Source: an uncultured Fimbriimonadaceae bacterium
GTDB lineage: Bacteria; Armatimonadota; Fimbriimonadia; Fimbriimonadales; Fimbriimonadaceae
DNA: 34,578 nucleotides
Direction: 5' to 3'
NCBI GenBank assembly: GCA_937961665.1
Contig: CALGMO010000078.1
Span: 1 to 34,578 of the forward strand
In this document: one piece after another, positions 5,692 through 21,984 of the stretch
Position numbering within the stretch: position 1 is the first letter of the stretch
Layout of the letters: every line of letters starts with the position of its first letter
Program-made: the position numbers and the translations under genes
Notes under the pieces: generated by a model
What the model was told of the DNA's origin: nothing
Seen by the model: only the letters and a program-made list of their open reading frames with translations
Databases searched by the model: none

Positions 5692-6621
5692 ATGGCGTGG
5701 ATTCTGGGGCTGGCCGCCGCCTACCTTCTGCTCCTGCTGCTGGTGGCGCGGCTGAGCCTCAGGCCGCTCCGCACCCCGCTGTTCCTCTCCCCGGGCTTCA
5801 TGGGCGTGCCACAGGAGGAGGTGGCTTTCGAGACGGAAGACGGGGTGACGCTGCGCGGGTGGTGGGTCGAGGGCCCTGCGGACGGTCCGGTGGCGCTGCT
5901 CGTCCACGGCTATCTGATGAACCGCTGCGAGCTGACGCCGATGGCCCCTTGGCTCCACCGCCTGGGGTTCTCCTGCCTGTTGCCCGACCTTCGGGCGCAC
6001 GGCCGAAGCGGGGGCCGACAGACGGGCCTGGGCTGGCTCGAGCGGAGGGACGTTCGGGCCGCGGCGGAGTGGATCCGATCGCGAAGGCCCGGCGCTAAGG
6101 TCGTGCTGGTCGGCAGCAGCATGGGCGCCGTCGCCTCCGCGTTCGCGCTGGCAGAGGACCCGGAGCTGGCGGACTGCGCCATCCTCGACAGCGCCTACTC
6201 GCGGCTCGCCGAGGCGATCCCGGGTTGGTGGGAGTTCCTGGCGGGCCGCTGGCTCCGGATCGTTCTGTCGCCCATGCTGCTCCTGGCTTGGCCGATGGCC
6301 GGCTTCAACCCGTTCCGCGTGGACGTGGCGAGGGCGTTGCGCGGCTTCGACGGCCGCCGGCTGCTGCTGGTGCACGGCGAGCGGGACGTGCTGGCGCCGC
6401 CGAGCCACGCCCGACGGAACGCGGCCGCCGCCCAGCCCCCGGCCACGATCCTGTGGATGCCGGACTGCGACCACAGCGAGGGACGTTGGCTCCATCCGAC
6501 CCGGTTTTATGACGGGGTTTTTGGCTTCCTGACCGCAAGGGGCATCCTGAAAACTACCGGCGCCTCCGACGATAGCACTGGTGGGTGGACGACCACGGAG
6601 GAGAGTCATGACCACGCTTGA
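5692..6621 (+). CDS. Membrane-anchored alpha/beta hydrolase
   Basis: 309 residues. An N-terminal hydrophobic helix (residues about 2-22, very Leu-rich) looks like an uncleaved anchor or signal. The rest is an alpha/beta-hydrolase fold of the serine-peptidase/esterase type: VHGYLMNR (oxyanion region, about 71), LPDLRAHGRSGG (about 98), nucleophile Ser143 in GSSMGAV, acid Asp in HGERDVLAPP and His in DCDHSEGRW. All triad members are present. The substrate is unknown. The last 14 bases overlap the start of the DUF433 gene, so the two are co-transcribed. TAGGGT lies 11 bases before the ATG and could be the -10 element. Confidence 0.85.
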   Translation: MAWILGLAAAYLLLLLLVARLSLRPLRTPLFLSPGFMGVPQEEVAFETEDGVTLRGWWVEGPADGPVALLVHGYLMNRCELTPMAPWLHRLGFSCLLPDLRAHGRSGGRQTGLGWLERRDVRAAAEWIRSRRPGAKVVLVGSSMGAVASAFALAEDPELADCAILDSAYSRLAEAIPGWWEFLAGRWLRIVLSPMLLLAWPMAGFNPFRVDVARALRGFDGRRLLLVHGERDVLAPPSHARRNAAAAQPPATILWMPDCDHSEGRWLHPTRFYDGVFGFLTARGILKTTGASDDSTGGWTTTEESHDHA

Positions 6622-13248: not shown

Positions 13249-13254
13249 TACAGT
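13249..13254 (+). promoter_or_regulatory. -10-like TACAGT before addB
   Basis: TACAGT is followed by seven bases (GGTACCC) and the ATG at 13262. There is no Shine-Dalgarno site between. The arrangement matches the other TANNNT-start pairs in the window and favours this ATG over the in-frame GTG at 13253, which overlaps the hexamer. Confidence 0.45.
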
Positions 13255-13261
13255 GGTACCC

Positions 13262-16030
13262 ATGGCCGTCCGAACCGTTGCCTTCGGTCGCGAGGCGATC
13301 CAGGCCCTCCGCGCGGCGATCGACGGCGCCAAGGCCGGGGATCGGTGCGCCGCGGTGACGGTCGCGGTCGGCTCCGTGCCCTGCGCGGTTCAGCTGCGGC
13401 GCGAGCTGGTCCGAGGCCACGCTCCCGAGGGGCCGGGGCTGTTCGGCGTGCGCCTCGCGACCCTGAGCAGCCTGGTGCGCCAGCTGGCGCCGCCCTGTCT
13501 GAACCCCTGCCCCCAGCCCGTGCGTTGGGCGGTGGCCCGGCGGCTGCTGCGCGACGATCCGGGGCCGTTCCGCGAGTGCGCCGGACACCCGGACCTCCCC
13601 GGGGCGCTCTTGAGGGCTTTCGACGCCCTCGACGCCTCGGACGCGCCCTCCGGGCCGCTCGAGGGACTCTGGAGGCGATACCGAGCGGAGATGGAGCGGT
13701 TCGGATTGGCGGATCCGAGCGCTCTGGCGAACGCGATCCCGGCCTCCATCCCGGATGGCTTGGGCCGGGTGGTCGTGTTCCTCCCGAAACGCCCGTCCGG
13801 GATCGAGCGCACGGTTCTCCAGAGTCTGGAGCAGGCGGGCGCGGAGCTGATCCTGGGCGCGACCGGCGATCCGGCGGCGGACGGCTGGCTTTCGGAGTGG
13901 TCGGGCGGCCCCCCGCCCGCCTGCCAAGTGCCCGCCGGGGACGCGATCCTCGCCTGCACCGACCCGGAGCAGGAGTGCCGCGAGGCGGTGCGCCGCGTCT
14001 GGGAGCATGCCCAGCAGGGGGTGCCGCTGGAGCGGCAGGCCATTCTGTTCCGTCGCCGCGACCCATACGCCCGGGTTGCGTTCCAGGTGCTGCGGGAGGC
14101 CGGCCTGCCGGCCTACGGCCGCGCCTACCAGCGGGTCTCCGATTCGGCGCTGGGAACGCTGCTGAGCGTCGCCCTGGACTTCGCCGAACACGGGTTCGAC
14201 GCCAACCGGCTGTTCGACTGGCTCGGCTCCCATCGGGCGAGGACGGATCAGGGGCGAGCGCCGGACGTCTCAGCTTGGAGGAGGTTGGTCCGCGAGATCG
14301 GGGTCGAGACGAACCTCGAGGCGCTGCTGGCCGGCCTCGGACGTCTCTCCTCGCCCGACGCCGCCGAGCTGGCCTCCCTTCTGGAGCGCTGGCGCCAGGC
14401 CGCGGAGGATCTGTTCGCGGCGACCGATCCCCTGCCTTGGAGCCGGCGCGTGAGCCGCCTCCTGGAGTGGGTGGACGAGCTGATGCCGGACGCGACGCTG
14501 CCCGAAGCCGAGCGCAGGCAGAAGGAGCGGTGGAGGGCCAGGGCGATCGAGCTGGAGTCGGTGGAGCCGGTCCAGCAGACCGTGGAAGGGCCAGAGTTCG
14601 CTTGGTTCGTCCGCCAGACGCTCCGGGGGGCGGGCCGCGCGCCGGGCCGCCTCGGAACGGGGGTGTTCGTCGGCACGTTCGAGGAAGCCCGCGGGATGGA
14701 TCTGGATGCCGTGTTCCTGCTGGGCGTCGTGGAGGGGGTCTGTCCGACGATCGTCCGCGGAGACCCGGTGCTGGGCCTCGTGCCCGGCGCGCTCCCGCCC
14801 GTTGAGGAGCAGGTGGCCCGCGAGCGAGAGCTGTACCTCTCGGCCCTAGGCTCCGGAGCGAGGAGGGTGGTGCTGTTCCCACGGGTGAGCCGCTTGGACG
14901 GCTCGTCGTGGCTCCCCTCCCGGTGGATCGGCGACGACCTGCGTTCCAAGGGCCTGGACACGGAGGCGTACGAGGATTCGCCGTCCTTCGAGGCGCGGAT
15001 CCGACAGGGCGGGTTCGCTTCCCCCGCCGAGGTGGACGCGGCTTGCTCCATCCCGCACGGTCGGGCCGAGGCTTGGAGCGTGCGTTGCCGCGAGCGGCTG
15101 TCCGACCAGCCGGGGCCGCACCTCGGCCTCGTGCGCCCGCTGCCGGAGATTCTGCGGAAGCCTCGGGCGGTGACGGAGGTCGGCGGTCTGGTCGCCTGCC
15201 CCCAGCGCTTCTTCCTCGGGAGCGTGCTCGGGGTCCGCGAGACCTTTCCCGCGGCCGACTGGAGGCCGGTGGATCCCAGGCGGCTGGGTTCCGCCATCCA
15301 CGGCGCCTTCGCGGATTTCTTTCGGAGCCTGTCGGACCGGTGGCCGGAGCGGTGGTCCGACGAGCACCGGGACCGTCTTCGGAGCCTCGTCCAAGGACGG
15401 CTGTCGGACCTGGAGCGGGATGGGTGGATCCGCCGCCGAGGTCTATGGAGCTATGAAGCCGAGCGTCTCCCGGAGCTGGCCGTTCGACTGCTGGAGGCCG
15501 AGGCCGAGGCTAGGGGTGGCGCGCAGCCCTTGGAGGCCCGGGTGGAGGTCCCGTTCGGAGCGCACGGCGCGGGAGTGAAGGTCGGGCCGCCGGGGGAGGA
15601 GCTGTTCCTCCAAGGACGCATCGACTTGCTCGAGGTGTTCGAGGACCGGCTGCTCGTGGTGGACCTCAAGACCGGAGGGTCCCGCCCGGATCCGATCCAG
15701 GTCCTGCTGTACCTGCGCGCCCTGGAAGCGACGGAACCCCGCAAGTCGCTGGGAGGGGCCTACCTCCTGCTGCAGGGGAACGAGGACAGCGTCGTTCCCG
15801 TTCCCTGGGATGCGGAGACCAAGGAGTCGGCCGATCAGCTGCTCGCCCGGCTCGTCCGGCTGGTCCGCGCCGGTTGGTTTCCGCTGACGCCCTCCGTAGG
15901 CGACGACCGGGAGAGCCAGTGCCGGTACTGCCCGTTCGACCGACTCTGTCCCTCGGACCGCATCGCCCTGCAGGAGGCCGCGATGGAGCACCTGGGCGAC
16001 ATCCTGAAGGAGGAACCGGAAGATGACTGA
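13262..16030 (+). CDS. addB: AddB-like subunit of ATP-dependent helicase/nuclease
   Basis: 922 residues. It is the partner of AddA in double-strand-break resection for RecA-dependent repair. The N-terminal and middle parts follow an inactive UvrD-like helicase fold: LATLSSLVRQLAP, AILFRRRDPYARVAFQVLREAG, GVFVGTFEEARGMDLDAVFLLG. I see no Walker A loop near the N-terminus. The C-terminal nuclease carries GSAIHGAFADF, LQGRIDLLEVFEDRLLVVDLKTG with Asp801 and Lys803 of the PD-(D/E)xK core, and four cysteines, Cys646 plus Cys887, Cys890 and Cys896 in CRYCPFDRLC, the iron-sulphur cluster that staples AddB nuclease domains. It overlaps addA by eight bases (ATGACTGA). At about 920 residues it is shorter than Bacillus AddB. 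Confidence 0.85.
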   Translation: MAVRTVAFGREAIQALRAAIDGAKAGDRCAAVTVAVGSVPCAVQLRRELVRGHAPEGPGLFGVRLATLSSLVRQLAPPCLNPCPQPVRWAVARRLLRDDPGPFRECAGHPDLPGALLRAFDALDASDAPSGPLEGLWRRYRAEMERFGLADPSALANAIPASIPDGLGRVVVFLPKRPSGIERTVLQSLEQAGAELILGATGDPAADGWLSEWSGGPPPACQVPAGDAILACTDPEQECREAVRRVWEHAQQGVPLERQAILFRRRDPYARVAFQVLREAGLPAYGRAYQRVSDSALGTLLSVALDFAEHGFDANRLFDWLGSHRARTDQGRAPDVSAWRRLVREIGVETNLEALLAGLGRLSSPDAAELASLLERWRQAAEDLFAATDPLPWSRRVSRLLEWVDELMPDATLPEAERRQKERWRARAIELESVEPVQQTVEGPEFAWFVRQTLRGAGRAPGRLGTGVFVGTFEEARGMDLDAVFLLGVVEGVCPTIVRGDPVLGLVPGALPPVEEQVARERELYLSALGSGARRVVLFPRVSRLDGSSWLPSRWIGDDLRSKGLDTEAYEDSPSFEARIRQGGFASPAEVDAACSIPHGRAEAWSVRCRERLSDQPGPHLGLVRPLPEILRKPRAVTEVGGLVACPQRFFLGSVLGVRETFPAADWRPVDPRRLGSAIHGAFADFFRSLSDRWPERWSDEHRDRLRSLVQGRLSDLERDGWIRRRGLWSYEAERLPELAVRLLEAEAEARGGAQPLEARVEVPFGAHGAGVKVGPPGEELFLQGRIDLLEVFEDRLLVVDLKTGGSRPDPIQVLLYLRALEATEPRKSLGGAYLLLQGNEDSVVPVPWDAETKESADQLLARLVRLVRAGWFPLTPSVGDDRESQCRYCPFDRLCPSDRIALQEAAMEHLGDILKEEPEDD

Positions 16031-19000
16031 ACCCGCCGACCGGTCCGCCCGCGAGGCCCTGGAGAGGGATCTGGACCGCTCGCTCTTCGTGAAGGCCGGG
16101 GCGGGCACGGGCAAGACGACGGCTCTGGTGCGCCGCATGCTGGCGGTGGTTCGCGCCGGCGGAAGCCTGGAGCGCACCGTCGCGATCACGTTCACCAAGA
16201 AGGCGGCGGCGGAGATGAAGGACCGGCTCCGGGCCGAGCTGCTGCGGCTGGTGTCCGGGGCGGCGGACGACGCCGATCGGGATCGCTACGCCCGCGCGTT
16301 GGCTGAGGTGGACGCTGCGCCGATCCAGACGATCCACAGCTTCGCCCAGAGCCTGCTGACCCGGTTTCCCATCGACGCGGGATTGCCTCCGATCCTTCAG
16401 GTGGAGGAGGAGACCGATCTCGAGGATGCGCTGGACCGATGGTGGCTCGAGACCAGCGATCGGCTGCTGGCTCGGCAGGACCTCCGCGAGGGGTGGGGCG
16501 CCCTGTTCGACCTGGGGGTCGCCGCGGACTTTGGGAGGGACCTCGCGGCCTTCTGCCTGAGGAACCCCCACGCCTCGGACGACCCGCAGGTTGCCGGCGC
16601 AGACGTGGCGGAGGCCGTCCAAGCGGTCCGAAGCGCGGCTGCGGAGTTCCTGCAGGCTTGGGACGCGGCGCGCCCCCGCCTCAAGAAGCCGTACCCGGAT
16701 TTCGAGGCCGGGGTGGAGCGCCTCCGAGCCTACGTCCGGGAACTCCCCGACGACCCCGGCCGCCTGCCCGAACGCCCGCCGAGGCTGAACCTCTCCGGGG
16801 TCTCCTCCGCGCTCAAGCCGCACTGGCAGGGATCGGTAGGCGTGAAGGAGGCGAGGGACGAGGTCGAGGCCTGTCTGGACCGCTTGGAGGGCGCTCTGCA
16901 ATGGCGGACCGTTCTGCCGGTCGTACGCGCGGTGGTGGAGGAGTCTCTGGCGTGGCGGAGGGCGCGGCTCGCACAGGGACGGCTGACGTTTCAGGACCTG
17001 CTGCTGGAGGCGGTCCGCCTGCTTCGGAAGAGGCCGGACGTGCTGGAGCAGGCCAGGGGTTCCTTCGACCGGGTGTTCGTGGACGAGTTCCAGGACACCG
17101 ACCCGCTGCAGGTGGAGCTGATCGCGCTGGTTGCGGGGGAGCTTTCGGGAGCCGCCCCGTGGGAGGACCAGCTCCGTTCGGCCAAGCCGGGCAAGCTGCT
17201 GTTCGTCGGCGACGCGAAGCAGTCCATCTATGCGTTCCGCGGCGCCGAGGTGGGCCTGTTCTACCGCGTGCAGGCGGTGTTTCCTTCGGAAGACGTTCTC
17301 GAGCTGAGCACGAACTTCCGGATCGCCCAGCCCACGCTCGACTGGATCAACGCCGTGTTCCCCGGGGTGCTGAGGGCCGAGGACCCGATCCCCTACGAGC
17401 CGATCGGATGCGGCCGAGCCGAGACGGCGGACGACCCGCCGATGGTGTTCCGTTTCGGCGGTCCGGTGAAGGCGGACGAGGACCCTCCCGGCGCGGAGTC
17501 GCTGGGCCTTCCCCCGTCTTCGCAGGGCGCCTCTCGGCTGAGGCGGGCGGAGGCGCGTTGGGCGGCCCGCTGCATCGCCTCCGCCGTGGCCGAGGGGCGC
17601 TTGGTTCGGGAGCGCGGCCAGCAGCCCCGGCCGGTGCGGTTCGGGGACGTCGCGGTGCTCCTGCCGACGCGAACGATCGAGCCGGTGCTGCTGCGGGAGT
17701 TCGATGCCCACGGCGTGCCGTACCGGGTCGAGAGCCAGACGGCGATGTTCGGCTCCCAGGAGTTCCGCGAGCTGGCCCTGTTCCTGCGCGCCGTGGACGA
17801 CCCCTCGGACGAGGTTGCTCTGGTCGGGGCGCTGAGGGGGCCGAGCTTCAGCCTGACCAACGACGACCTGGTCGAGTTCGTCTCCGGGCACGTCGACGGC
17901 TGGCGCACCCCGCCCGAGGCCGCCGCGGGTCCGGTCGGCGACGCACTGAGGGAACTAGAGGCCTTCCGGCGCGAGGCGAGGGGACTGGACGCCTCGGAGG
18001 TGCTCGCGGCGGCGATGAACCGGTTCGAGTGGATCGCCTCCTACGGAAGGAACCCGAGGCCGAGGGAGAGCTGGAACCGGCTCTGGACGCTGCTCGCCAT
18101 GGCCCGCGACCACGCGGAGCGCGGGCAGGGAGCGCTGAGGAGCTTCGTGGCGTTCTTGGAGGCGCAGGCGGAGGAGCGGGCGCGCGTGTCGGAGCCGATC
18201 GGCGCGGAGCTGGACGACGACGCCGTCCGCGTTCTCACCATCCATGCGGCCAAGGGGTTGGAGTTCCCGATGGTGTTGCTGGTGGGCATGGGATCCAAGC
18301 CGATGCCGGTCAGGGACCAGTTCGCCTGGGATCCGGAAGGCCGGCTCGTGGTGCGCGTGGGCAAGCGCCTCGCGTCGCCCGGGGCCGAGCTCGCCTTCGA
18401 GTTCTTGGAGGAGGCCTACGAGCTGGAGCGCAAGCGGCTCGCCTATGTTGCGGCGACGCGAACCATGGGACCGCTGTTGATCGGCATGGCCTGCCGAGAG
18501 AGGCAGCCCTCGATGGCCCGTCTCCTCCACGACGCTGCGAACGAGGCGGACCGGCTGCCGGAGCTCTGGGTGCCCGGCAGGCCGAGCGTTCCGCGCGCCG
18601 CCGTGCGCGAGCTGACGGACGAGGAGAGGGAGGCGGCCCTGGCGCGATTCGCGGAGGTTCGGAGAGTCGCCACGAGGCCGTTCCTCGCCTCTCCGACCTC
18701 GATCAGCAAGGCGATGCTAGGCGAGGGGCCCGGCTCCACCGAGGGGGACTTTCCCGAGGAGCCGTACGTGTGGGCCGATCGTCGGGCCAAGGCCGCCACC
18801 ACCGAGGGTCTGGCGGTGCACGCCACGCTCGAGCTGTACCGGCCCGGATGCGACCTGGACGCGCTGATCTGGGAGGCCTGCATGGCCGAGGGCGCACAGA
18901 ACGTGGAGGAGGTCGCGAGGATGGTGCGAGCGGGCCTCGACGAGCCAGAGATCCGCGCCGCGCTCGACGGAACGGTCCAGGCGTGGCGCGAGGCGTTCCT

Positions 19001-19328
19001 CTCGGCGTGGGTCGAGGGCTGGCTTCTGGAAGGGTACATGGACCTCCTCATCCGGCGCCCGGACGGCGAGTTCGTGGTTCTGGACTACAAGACCGACCGC
19101 GCCGACACCGAGGAGCGGATCCGGAACTCGATGCGGCACCACCGCATCCAGGGAGCCTGCTACGCCCTGATGCTCGAGCAGACGCTCGGGCGCCGTCCCG
19201 TGCGGGTCGAGTTCCGCTTCCTCCGACCGGATCCTCCCATCGTGCAGACGGTCGACGACCTGGACGAGGCGATCGGCGAGGTGCGATCCTTCCTCCGCGA
19301 CTGGGACGGAGCCGCGCCGTTCGCGTAG
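16023..19328 (+). CDS. addA: AddA-like UvrD-family helicase/nuclease
   Basis: 1101 residues. This is the motor subunit of the AddAB complex. Superfamily 1A motifs are intact: Walker A AGAGTGKT (25-32), AITFTKKAAAEMKDRL, QTIHSFAQSLLTRFP, Walker B with DEFQDTD (354-360), LFVGDAKQSIYAFRGA, LSTNFRI, VLTIHAAKGLEFPMVLLVG and KRLAYVAATRT. The C-terminal 200 residues are a second PD-(D/E)xK nuclease: GLAVHATLELYRPG, LEGYMDLLIRRPDGEFVVLDYKTD with Asp1021 and Lys1023, then IQGACYALMLEQ. Both subunits therefore keep nuclease cores, as in the AddAB class. The start overlaps the addB stop, so translation is coupled. A ribosome site (GGAGGAA) lies close before the ATG. Confidence 0.93.
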   Translation: MTEPADRSAREALERDLDRSLFVKAGAGTGKTTALVRRMLAVVRAGGSLERTVAITFTKKAAAEMKDRLRAELLRLVSGAADDADRDRYARALAEVDAAPIQTIHSFAQSLLTRFPIDAGLPPILQVEEETDLEDALDRWWLETSDRLLARQDLREGWGALFDLGVAADFGRDLAAFCLRNPHASDDPQVAGADVAEAVQAVRSAAAEFLQAWDAARPRLKKPYPDFEAGVERLRAYVRELPDDPGRLPERPPRLNLSGVSSALKPHWQGSVGVKEARDEVEACLDRLEGALQWRTVLPVVRAVVEESLAWRRARLAQGRLTFQDLLLEAVRLLRKRPDVLEQARGSFDRVFVDEFQDTDPLQVELIALVAGELSGAAPWEDQLRSAKPGKLLFVGDAKQSIYAFRGAEVGLFYRVQAVFPSEDVLELSTNFRIAQPTLDWINAVFPGVLRAEDPIPYEPIGCGRAETADDPPMVFRFGGPVKADEDPPGAESLGLPPSSQGASRLRRAEARWAARCIASAVAEGRLVRERGQQPRPVRFGDVAVLLPTRTIEPVLLREFDAHGVPYRVESQTAMFGSQEFRELALFLRAVDDPSDEVALVGALRGPSFSLTNDDLVEFVSGHVDGWRTPPEAAAGPVGDALRELEAFRREARGLDASEVLAAAMNRFEWIASYGRNPRPRESWNRLWTLLAMARDHAERGQGALRSFVAFLEAQAEERARVSEPIGAELDDDAVRVLTIHAAKGLEFPMVLLVGMGSKPMPVRDQFAWDPEGRLVVRVGKRLASPGAELAFEFLEEAYELERKRLAYVAATRTMGPLLIGMACRERQPSMARLLHDAANEADRLPELWVPGRPSVPRAAVRELTDEEREAALARFAEVRRVATRPFLASPTSISKAMLGEGPGSTEGDFPEEPYVWADRRAKAATTEGLAVHATLELYRPGCDLDALIWEACMAEGAQNVEEVARMVRAGLDEPEIRAALDGTVQAWREAFLSAWVEGWLLEGYMDLLIRRPDGEFVVLDYKTDRADTEERIRNSMRHHRIQGACYALMLEQTLGRRPVRVEFRFLRPDPPIVQTVDDLDEAIGEVRSFLRDWDGAAPFA

Positions 19329-19349
19329 AGAATCGGCCGTGCCAGGGGC

Positions 19350-19355
19350 TATGCT
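19350..19355 (+). promoter_or_regulatory. -10-like TATGCT before the GH95-like gene
   Basis: TATGCT is followed by seven bases (GGCGGCC) and the ATG at 19363, the same spacing as at addB. It overlaps an in-frame ATG at 19351, which makes 19363 the more likely start. No Shine-Dalgarno site is visible. Confidence 0.4.
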
Positions 19356-19362
19356 GGCGGCC

Positions 19363-21984
19363 ATGCTGCTGCCGCCCGTGGACGCGCCGCGAACGGACTT
19401 CTGGAGCGACCTCGATCGCTGCGACGTCGTCTGGACCTCGCCCAGCGAGGACGCCTCCGGGTCGATGCCGCTGGGCAACGGCGAGGTGGGCCTCAACCTG
19501 TGGGTCGAGCCGAGCGGCGACCTCGTCTTCTACGTGTCCCGGACGGACGCCTGGAGCGAGGCCTCGCGCTTGCTCAAGCTGGCTCGGGTGCGGGTGCGCC
19601 TCGAACCCTCGCCTCTCAAGCCGGTCGCGCCGTTCGAGCAGAGGCTGTCGCTCAAGGACGGTCGGGTCGAGGTGCGGATGGGCGGGTGGCGGTTCCGGGT
19701 GTTCGTGGACGCCTCCTCGCCGGTCGTCTACGTCGAGGGGAGAGGGGGCGACGCCGCGAGGGTGACGGCCACGGTCGAGAACTGGCGCACGGAGCCCCGC
19801 CGTCTGCAGGGCGAGGAGCTCCGGTCGAGCTGGACCATGCAGGACGCTCCGGAGAGCGTGCGCGTGCAGGAGAGCGCGGATCGGTTCGACGTGCGCAGCC
19901 CGGAAGCCGTAGTCTGGTGGCACCGCAACGAAACCTCCGTGGTCCCGTTCACCCTCCGCCACCAGGGCCTCGAGGCGGTCGCCGACTTGGCGAAAGACCC
20001 GATCCTGCACCGCACGTTCGGAGGCCGCCTGCGAGGAGAGGGGTTCTTCCGGGTCGGCAAGGACTCGCTGGAGACCGCCCAGCCAGTGCGGTCCTTCTGC
20101 CTCACCCTGGCGACGGCGTCGGAGCAAACGGCCTCGGTGGAGGAGTGGCTCGCGCGGCTTCCGGATCCTGTACCCGCGGAGCGGGCGCGTTCCCGCACCT
20201 CGCGGTGGTGGAGGGCCTTCTGGGAGAGGAGCCACATCTTCGTGGAACCGCGGTGGACCCTGCCGGAGAGTCCGCACGCGCTCCGGCTGGGAGTCGATTC
20301 GAACGGAAGCAGCCGCTTCGCCGGCGAGATCCGGGACGCGGTCGCGGCGCCCCGACCTCTGAGCGAGGCGGAGATCCGTCTGCTGGCGTCCAAGGGACCC
20401 GGCGAGTCTGGGGCCGCGACGCCCGAAGACATCCGCTTGGCGAACGGATTCACGGTGGCCGCCTGGATCCGCCCCGGCGAGGGAGAGTCCGGCAGAATCT
20501 TCGACAAGCTCACCGCGGGCGGCAGCGACGGCTTTCTGTTCGACGCGCACCCCGCCTTGGCGCTGCGTCTGATCGTGGGCCAACGCACGGTGCGCCTGGA
20601 CCGGTGCCTGACGGCCGGTCGGTGGACGCACGTGGCGGCGACCGCCTCCTCCGACGGCTCGCTGGCGATCTACGTCGACGGCGTGCGCAGGGCCTTCTCG
20701 GAGCCGCCGAGCGTCAGCCAGGCGTACCAGCTCCAGAGGTACATGGCGGCCTGTTCCGGCAGGGGTGCCTATCCGATCAAGTTCAACGGCTCCATCTTCA
20801 CCGTGGACCCGAAGCTCGCCGGGGGGCCGGACCTGAACCCCGACTGGCGCCGGTGGGGCGACTGCTACTGGTGGCAGAACACCCGCCTTCCTTACTTCGC
20901 GATGGTGGCGAGCGGCGACGCGGACCTCGCGGGGCCGCTGTTCGACCTGTACGAGCGGGTTCTGCCGCTGAGCGTGGCCCGCGCGAGAATCTACTACGGC
21001 GCGTCGGGCGTGTACTTCCCAGAGACGATGACCCCGTTCGGCACCTACGCCAACCGGGACTACGGCTGGGATCGGAATGGCAAGCAGCCCGGGGAGGTCG
21101 ATTCCCCTTGGTGGCGCTACGCCTGGCAGCAGGGGCTGGAGCTGACGTCGCTGATGCTGGACTTCCACGACCAGACGCTGGATCGCCGGTTCCTCGAGCG
21201 TCGCGTGCTGCCGATGGCCAGGGAGGTGCTCGCCTACTTCGATTCCCGCTTCCCGCGCGACCCCTCGGGACGCCTGAGGATCGAGCCGACGCAGGCCGTG
21301 GAGACCTACTGGAACGGGGTGGTGAACGACACCCCCACCGTGGCCGGGCTGCACGACGTCGTGGGGCGTCTTTCCCGGCTCCGGTTGCCCAAGGACTTGG
21401 CCGCGTTGGTGGCGCGCCTGCAGTCCGCGCTTCCGCCGTTGCCGGTGAGCGGAGATCGCATCGCGCCCGCGGAGAGATACGAACCGGTGCGCTCGAACGT
21501 CGAGAACCCCGAGCTGTACGCCATCTGGCCGTTCCGGCTGGCGGGCGTCTGCAGGCAGAACCTGTCCCTCGCGCGACGGACGTTCCTCAGAAGGATCGAG
21601 AAGGCGTCCGTCGGCTGGCAGTACGACGGCCAGTGCGCGGCCCTCAGCGGTCTGGCCGAGGAGGCGGGCCGCATCCTCCTGGGCAAGGTGGGCAACTCGC
21701 ACCCTGCGTTCCGCTTCCCTGCGATGTGGGGCCCGAACTACGACTGGCTGCCCGATCAGGACCACGGCAGCAACATCCTGCTGACCCTGCAGAACATGGT
21801 GCTGCAGCCCGTCGGCGACAAGATCCACCTGCTGCCCGCCTGGCCGACGGATTGGAACGTCCGCTTCCGCCTGAAGGCCCCGAAGCGCACCACCGTCGAG
21901 GGGGAGTTTCGCGACGGCAGGCTGCTGTGGCTGAAGGTGGAGCCGCCGGAGCGGGCCAAGGACGTGGTTCTGCCCCTCGGCTAG
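19363..21984 (+). CDS. DUF5703/GH95-like glycosidase with an inserted, permuted LamG domain
   Basis: 873 residues from the ATG at 19363; GTG 19339 and ATG 19351 are in-frame alternatives. No clear signal peptide. Residues about 20-290 match the DUF5703 N-terminal beta domain of GH95-like proteins: SGSMPLGNGEVGLNLWVE, FYVSRTDAWSEASRLLKLARV. The (alpha/alpha)6 catalytic part starts at about 280 (WWRAFWERSHIFVE) and resumes at about 455 with YQLQRYMAACSGRGAYPIKF, RRWGDCYWWQNTRLPYFAMV, ETMTPFG. Between them, about residues 300-447, lies a LamG/concanavalin-like domain in reversed order: LRLGVDSNGSSRFAGEI and PLSEAEIRLLA, normally its end, precede GFTVAAWIRPGEG and WTHVAATASSDGSLAIYVDG, normally its beginning. 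Retaining or inverting activity and substrate (fucosides in true GH95) are unknown. The stop shares CTAG with the convergent Gfo/Idh gene. Confidence 0.78.
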   Translation: MLLPPVDAPRTDFWSDLDRCDVVWTSPSEDASGSMPLGNGEVGLNLWVEPSGDLVFYVSRTDAWSEASRLLKLARVRVRLEPSPLKPVAPFEQRLSLKDGRVEVRMGGWRFRVFVDASSPVVYVEGRGGDAARVTATVENWRTEPRRLQGEELRSSWTMQDAPESVRVQESADRFDVRSPEAVVWWHRNETSVVPFTLRHQGLEAVADLAKDPILHRTFGGRLRGEGFFRVGKDSLETAQPVRSFCLTLATASEQTASVEEWLARLPDPVPAERARSRTSRWWRAFWERSHIFVEPRWTLPESPHALRLGVDSNGSSRFAGEIRDAVAAPRPLSEAEIRLLASKGPGESGAATPEDIRLANGFTVAAWIRPGEGESGRIFDKLTAGGSDGFLFDAHPALALRLIVGQRTVRLDRCLTAGRWTHVAATASSDGSLAIYVDGVRRAFSEPPSVSQAYQLQRYMAACSGRGAYPIKFNGSIFTVDPKLAGGPDLNPDWRRWGDCYWWQNTRLPYFAMVASGDADLAGPLFDLYERVLPLSVARARIYYGASGVYFPETMTPFGTYANRDYGWDRNGKQPGEVDSPWWRYAWQQGLELTSLMLDFHDQTLDRRFLERRVLPMAREVLAYFDSRFPRDPSGRLRIEPTQAVETYWNGVVNDTPTVAGLHDVVGRLSRLRLPKDLAALVARLQSALPPLPVSGDRIAPAERYEPVRSNVENPELYAIWPFRLAGVCRQNLSLARRTFLRRIEKASVGWQYDGQCAALSGLAEEAGRILLGKVGNSHPAFRFPAMWGPNYDWLPDQDHGSNILLTLQNMVLQPVGDKIHLLPAWPTDWNVRFRLKAPKRTTVEGEFRDGRLLWLKVEPPERAKDVVLPLG

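Follow-up and report, generated by a model that had tools for sequence, protein, structure and literature searches.

The best-described relatives of the enzyme studied here are the two solved members of glycoside hydrolase family GH139. BT0984 (PDB 9hyq), a 2-O-methyl-alpha-L-fucosidase of rhamnogalacturonan II (RG-II), is the sole GH139 enzyme with a known substrate, the 2-O-methyl-L-fucoside of RG-II; the second, SDT91673.1 (9hmb), showed no activity on the substrates tested, the same glycans (PMC12282258). The account of these structures mentions neither LamG nor an insertion (PMC12282258). Our protein shares the three-domain fold of both across its whole enzyme part; unlike it, neither BT0984 nor SDT91673.1 carries a LamG insert.

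The inserted domain itself resembles the LamG_3/Concanavalin A-like domains (PF13385, e.g. 4qvs), with which it has a profile and conserved positions in common and a similar predicted fold. Those domains run in the ordinary order, whereas the insert appears permuted, its cut lying near position 108 of the 151 in the profile. There are known precedents for permuted jelly rolls in general. Concanavalin A, set against other legume lectins, is a circular permutation in a jelly-roll lectin, like that proposed for the insert; in Concanavalin A the change is post-translational, whereas here it would be encoded in the gene. Circular permutation is mostly recognised only through structure comparison. 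The literature searched contained no account of a circularly permuted LamG domain and no paper mentioning DUF5703.

Host enzyme and site of the insert

The window, the whole stretch of DNA analysed, comprises 34,578 nucleotides of contig CALGMO010000078.1 from an uncultured Fimbriimonadaceae bacterium. An open reading frame at 19339..21984 (+ strand) encodes a protein of 881 aa, which the reading frame, Pfam, phmmer and a structure model together describe as a GH139-type glycoside hydrolase. The start codon listed is GTG, with an ATG at residue 5 as the alternative. An N-terminal beta-sandwich domain, DUF5703_N (PF18961), occupies residues 31-300 (19429..20238, +; Pfam E 2.1e-75), and the GH139 (alpha/alpha)6 toroid with its C-terminal beta domain occupies residues 459-878 (20713..21972, +; phmmer alignment to 9hyq at 458-879; Pfam Glyco_hydro_95_cat E 4.4e-6).

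A phmmer search of the PDB with the host protein matched 9hmb (E 2.4e-109) and 9hyq (3e-101), each annotated as a DUF5703 protein. Residues 23-881 were modelled with AlphaFold2 (pLDDT 91.2, pTM 0.90), and the model superposed on 9hmb with Z 44.0 (694 residues aligned, 1.9 A, 40% identity) and on 9hyq with Z 42.6; GH95 enzymes came next, at Z of about 30. Because the best structural match is GH139 and GH95 enzymes only follow it, the host belongs to GH139, and the label "GH95-like" given to it in the earlier, sequence-only reading is correct as a description of the fold but not of the family. The Glyco_hydro_95_cat score, 26.3 bits, lies below the curated Pfam cut-off of 27.

By alignment, residues Q513-N514 (20875..20880, +) correspond to Q411-N412 of BT0984, the proposed catalytic base, and E655 (21301..21303, +) to E561, the proposed catalytic acid (roles from PMC12282258); W683, D723 and W403 correspond to W760, D806 and W506 in the host. 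Equivalents of all six BT0984 residues were kept in 27 of 27 insert-bearing GH139 proteins of the first set, so the host is probably catalytically competent.

Neither the window gene (positions 19339-19400) nor that of a genus-mate encodes a clear signal peptide (MLAAMLLPPVDA.. and MLAGVTPIAPPP.., respectively); an apparent signal peptide is present in two more distant relatives (L003 and L010). Directly upstream, at 13253-19328, lie overlapping genes for a PD-(D/E)XK nuclease and a UvrD-type helicase/nuclease, which are AddB/AddA-like. The GH139 start codon falls 10 bases past the helicase stop codon.

Two sets of comparisons establish that the roughly 150-residue insert, which occupies residues ~304-455 (20248..20703, +), is genuine. 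Alignments of 9hyq and 9hmb to the window protein by phmmer covered residues ~30-304 and 458-879 and skipped what lies between, with the gap on 9hyq falling between its residues 321 and 353. A genus-mate (G002) has a 26-aa loop, ERSFVFADPPNRAGDAPSVSRAYQLQ, in place of the insert, and its flanks are 71-77% identical to those of the window protein. In the model, the insert is flanked on its N-terminal side by a helix (280-297) and then a short strand (299-303), and on its C-terminal side by another helix (459-474). In GH139, a small strand between helices alpha2 and alpha3 (beta17) becomes part of the C-terminal beta domain, and helix alpha3 itself is located between the two domains (PMC12282258). 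By our own assignment on the model, the insertion point would lie between beta17 and alpha3. We envisage a single, complete LamG-type jelly roll inserted in the beta17-alpha3 loop of an inverting GH139-type exo-glycosidase, the catalytic set of which is intact.

Order of the LamG segments

The LamG-type motifs were found where the sequence-only reading had placed them, at residues 309-455 of the reading frame, with the part that ordinarily ends the domain coming first. Segment A (LRLGVDSNG..FAGEI..PLSEAEIRLLA; residues 313-351; 20275..20391, +) corresponds to the C-terminal part of an ordinary LamG domain (profile part A, 64.2 bits; PF13385 positions ~110-150). A short linker (residues 352-368; 20392..20442, +), placed from the alignment of 27 inserts, connects what was once the C-terminal part to what was once the N-terminal part. 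Segment B (GFTVAAWI..GRIFDK.TAGGSDGFLFD..RLIVG..GRWTHVAAT..YVDG; residues 369-451; 20443..20691, +) corresponds to the N-terminal and central part (profile part B, 122.6 bits; PF13385 6-105). The earlier reading spoke of two swapped halves; the swap holds, but the parts are unequal, about 39 residues and then about 83, joined by a linker of 15-17 residues.

The PF13385 profile (LamG_3/Laminin_G_3) scored the window protein at 64.1 bits, against a curated cut-off of 27.6, and matched it in two stretches, the better of which pairs residues 358-454 with positions 6-105 of the 151 in the profile. The collinear order of the profile is not that of the insert, in which positions ~110-150 come first and ~5-106 second. 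Homologues display each stretch separately: the best in L071 covers 110-149 and lies in segment A, and the best in L038 covers 6-108 and lies in segment B. No complete, standard-order LamG domain was detected by Pfam elsewhere in the window protein.

The same A-then-B order was found in all 27 sequences of the first set, with the consensus LRIGxDSxGGxxFxGxI...LSxxEI for A and GFTxxAWIxP...GRIFDKxTxGGxDGFLFDTxPGxxLRLIVG...WxHVAATxD...YxDG for B. A rotation test was made with a profile built solely from 15 ordinary-order LamG domains of the same phylum, which had been found with the insert profile; 68 permuted domains were turned four residues at a time, and each rotation was scored as one collinear alignment. 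Rotation raised the score in 68 of 68, by 6.1 to 47.6 bits (mean +27.6), for domains which are homologues and hence non-independent but which come from several host settings. The optimum, with roughly the first 40 residues shifted to the end, fell at the A/B junction or in the linker in nearly all cases, and slightly earlier in a few. As a leave-one-out control, the ordinary domains were treated likewise: zero rotation was best in 13 of 15, and the other two were within 0.3 bit of it, with one end residue wrapping. Given the shared order in 27 sequences and the gain on rotation in every domain, the order of the insert is far beyond chance.

The residues that are nearly invariant in the permuted domains are nearly invariant in the ordinary ones as well (permuted/ordinary: in B, R 100/100%, D 98/100%, D 100/100% and R 100/100%; in A, D 94/86% and G 100/100%). 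Solved relatives have B before A, as in 4qvs (B 71-162, A 194-222) and pappalysin-2, and no solved structure in the PDB was found to match the profile of the permuted domain with A ahead of B. A candidate precedent, domain 4 of AbnA (5hon; alignment range starting at model residue 22), was set aside when it proved collinear with the ordinary-order profile.

Errors of assembly or of interpretation were also considered. Chimeric assembly or misassembly is ruled out, since dozens of independent genomes, drawn from several phyla, show the same order. A tandem LamG array misread as a permuted domain was likewise rejected: in GH139 the sequence flanking A-B on both sides has neither the space for the missing parts nor any match to them, and elsewhere A directly follows a signal-like sequence (L149) or the protein ends after B (L154 and L157).

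Structure prediction, as called for in the sequence-only reading, returned one confident domain for the insert alone (AlphaFold2 with 18 aligned sequences; pLDDT 91.4, pTM 0.88), and the insert was a single confident domain in the whole-protein model too. The top PDB matches of the insert model by Foldseek were pentraxins, and VIA-align matched it to LG domains of agrin, neurexin and laminin and to PTX3 at Z 7-8.5, values that are modest (below 9). This alignment, which respects chain order, covered model residues ~55-159 and omitted the first ~50, that is, segment A; on the predicted fold, such an omission is the outcome expected when an order-respecting aligner meets a permuted domain. Pentraxins (PTX3 and the neuronal pentraxins) are animal proteins of ordinary order, unlike the insert, and the ordinary-order bacterial relatives are collinear with them, LRIGADSDG standing opposite LQIGQEKNG.

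A competing explanation is that two independent, partial LamG-like pieces, for example the tail of one lost domain and the head of another, adjoin without forming a single domain. In its favour, Pfam reports two separate stretches, and the linker varies widely across the 27 inserts, being close to absent in some and about 80 residues long in others. Yet the isolated insert is predicted with confidence as one domain; A and B always occur together, in the same order and with nothing beyond, including in a protein of 171 aa and at protein ends; and their conserved residues jointly complete the set of a single LamG domain. Purifying selection acts on both segments: between G000 and G001, dN/dS was about 0.22 for A and 0.24 for B, as compared to 0.40 for the linker and 0.08 for the catalytic part. 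The LamG domain is thus under constraint, weaker than that on the enzyme part, and the linker is the fastest-changing part of the insert (47% identity to G001). We regard the adjoining of independent pieces as highly improbable. A single LamG domain in circularly permuted order, as the sequence-only reading proposed, is very probably the correct description, being backed by the rotation test, the residues conserved in both orders, the single-domain model and the sequential alignment that leaves A out.

Settings, spread and origin of the permuted domain

Profiles for A, B and two parts of the host were used to survey the settings of the domain on fetched loci. Permuted A-B occurred mostly in GH139, but also at the N-terminus of GH95 enzymes, just past a signal-like sequence (L149 and L150), and at the C-terminus of GH95-type enzymes, two of which stop only a few residues after B (L154 and L157; L158 is alike). 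It was also C-terminal in enzymes without a Pfam match (L138, L142, L151, L152, L155 and L156, with L146 partial). The first six of this last group form a family of proteins ~880-950 aa long; no Pfam family covers their first ~570 residues, which by look only are probably an uncharacterised alpha/alpha-type enzyme.

A stand-alone copy was found at L088:1936-2451 (G027:C4), a protein of 171 aa with nothing else but a hydrophobic start. It is 41-44% identical to GH139 inserts from the same family-level group, and its genome also has an insert-free GH139 (L014); it is possibly a split-off domain. That it is the relic of a decayed GH139 gene was discounted, as no remnant of a GH139 core lies within about 2 kb. 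Because the permuted LamG occurs at N-termini, at C-termini and alone, it counts as an independent module and did not arise merely as a consequence of the GH139 loop.

The ordinary B-A order was found N-terminal in GH95 enzymes (L121, L122, L124, L126, L128 and L131-L134) and in other GH95/DUF5703-like proteins (L123, L125, L127 and L129). The LamG domains of the former are close relatives of the window's domain, from the same phylum and partly from the same genomes; unlike it, they are in ordinary order, N-terminal and not inserted. Both orders of the subfamily were present in each of four genomes (G216, G067, G088 and G089). One lectin-like domain thus exists in both orders within shared genomes and one class of enzymes, and in inserted, N-terminal, C-terminal and stand-alone versions, which amounts to a natural experiment on the origin, spread and retained function of permuted domains. 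A routine profile scan breaks a domain of this kind into two partial matches, so that permuted forms are under-reported.

The sequence-only reading had suggested that permutation is what let the domain insert in a loop, and that the insert might sit over the active site as a carbohydrate-binding module. If the permutation were an adaptation to the GH139 loop and the domain an active-site lid, one would understand why the permuted order is the only one at this loop in the sequences examined. However, the permuted form is found equally at N-termini, at C-termini (where the protein stops directly behind the final strand) and alone, which leaves permutation unsupported as the means of insertion; the termini of an ordinary LamG domain are adjacent too, and insertion therefore requires no permutation. 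The insert is also missing in close GH139 relatives, and the beta17-alpha3 position assigned from the model does not by itself suggest a lid. We consider adaptation to the loop together with a lid improbable, though the domain may conceivably lie over the active site, and treat it as a mobile module.

A scan of the collection, seeded with host patterns only, compared DUF5703 proteins with and without the insert, as the earlier reading had proposed. The insert was present in five phyla (Armatimonadota, 3/8; Verrucomicrobiota, 8/11; Planctomycetota, 3/8; Lentisphaerota, 1/1; Kiritimatiellota, 1/1) and in 0 of 17 Bacteroidota. On a host tree built by a quick method with the insert columns removed, and having some long branches, presence or absence of the insert required 11 changes, at least 8 of them forced by well-supported branches. 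Within GH139, at least 8 gains or losses of the insert must therefore have occurred while the catalytic residues were retained, gains and losses being indistinguishable, a pattern that also tells against a lid fitted to this loop.

On a LamG tree with ordinary-order outgroups, order required 4 changes, 2 of them forced. A single clade of all permuted domains was neither demonstrated nor clearly rejected, with an AU p of 0.15, and of 0.02 without L138, the latter for a grouping picked after seeing the tree. We would put it at a little under an even chance that LamG in these bacteria switched order more than once, by repeated permutation or by reversion of the GH95 N-terminal clade, and that the permuted form is mobile and able to leave its host as a separate protein.

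A likely order of events can be sketched. Long permuted members (L035-L038, L142 and L154) retain a whole LamG N-region between A and B, like the middle of a tandem array, which suggests that an ordinary LamG was first duplicated in tandem and the outer parts were then lost. In the window's copy, the N-region between A and B has been lost. A LamG domain normally closes with a hairpin and a short helix; in the permuted form these would come first, the chain having been opened in the loop before LRxGxDSxG. The permuted domain would then have spread as a module: into GH139, to the N-terminus of GH95, to the C-terminus of GH95-type and unnamed enzymes, and to an existence alone. In one GH139 gene (L040, near locus position 6342), an in-frame stop codon just past the LamG insert divides the gene into two reading frames in the same frame; the stop is either a real mutation or a sequencing error.

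Role of the domain

There is about an even chance, in our judgement, that the domain is an accessory ligand- or glycan-binding module, indifferent to its position in the protein, which would hold the enzyme on its substrate. LamG domains can also serve in protein-protein contacts or stability. The main rival is a structural or oligomerisation element instead of a binding module: conservation is highest in RxDK and LDTxPG, motifs that are common to both orders and could be structural. Against this stands the movement of the module among hosts and positions, which is the behaviour of accessory binding modules, and we think a purely structural role somewhat unlikely.

If the accessory module does bind a ligand, a possible Ca2+ or glycan site would be formed by the GxDSxGG loop of A together with the DK..GGxDG..LD motif of B. 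Acidic loop positions are conserved in permuted and ordinary domains, and one loop is collinear with pentraxins; the putative Ca2+ site is drawn by analogy with these. In CRP, two Ca2+ ions are bound by Asp60, Asn61 and the loop residues Glu138, Gln139, Asp140, Glu147 and Gln150 (PMC6503050).

As a separate observation on domain content, three relatives of the host enzyme without the insert (L057, L060 and L069) have GH139 fused to N-terminal esterase domains (GDSL-like lipase; SASA).
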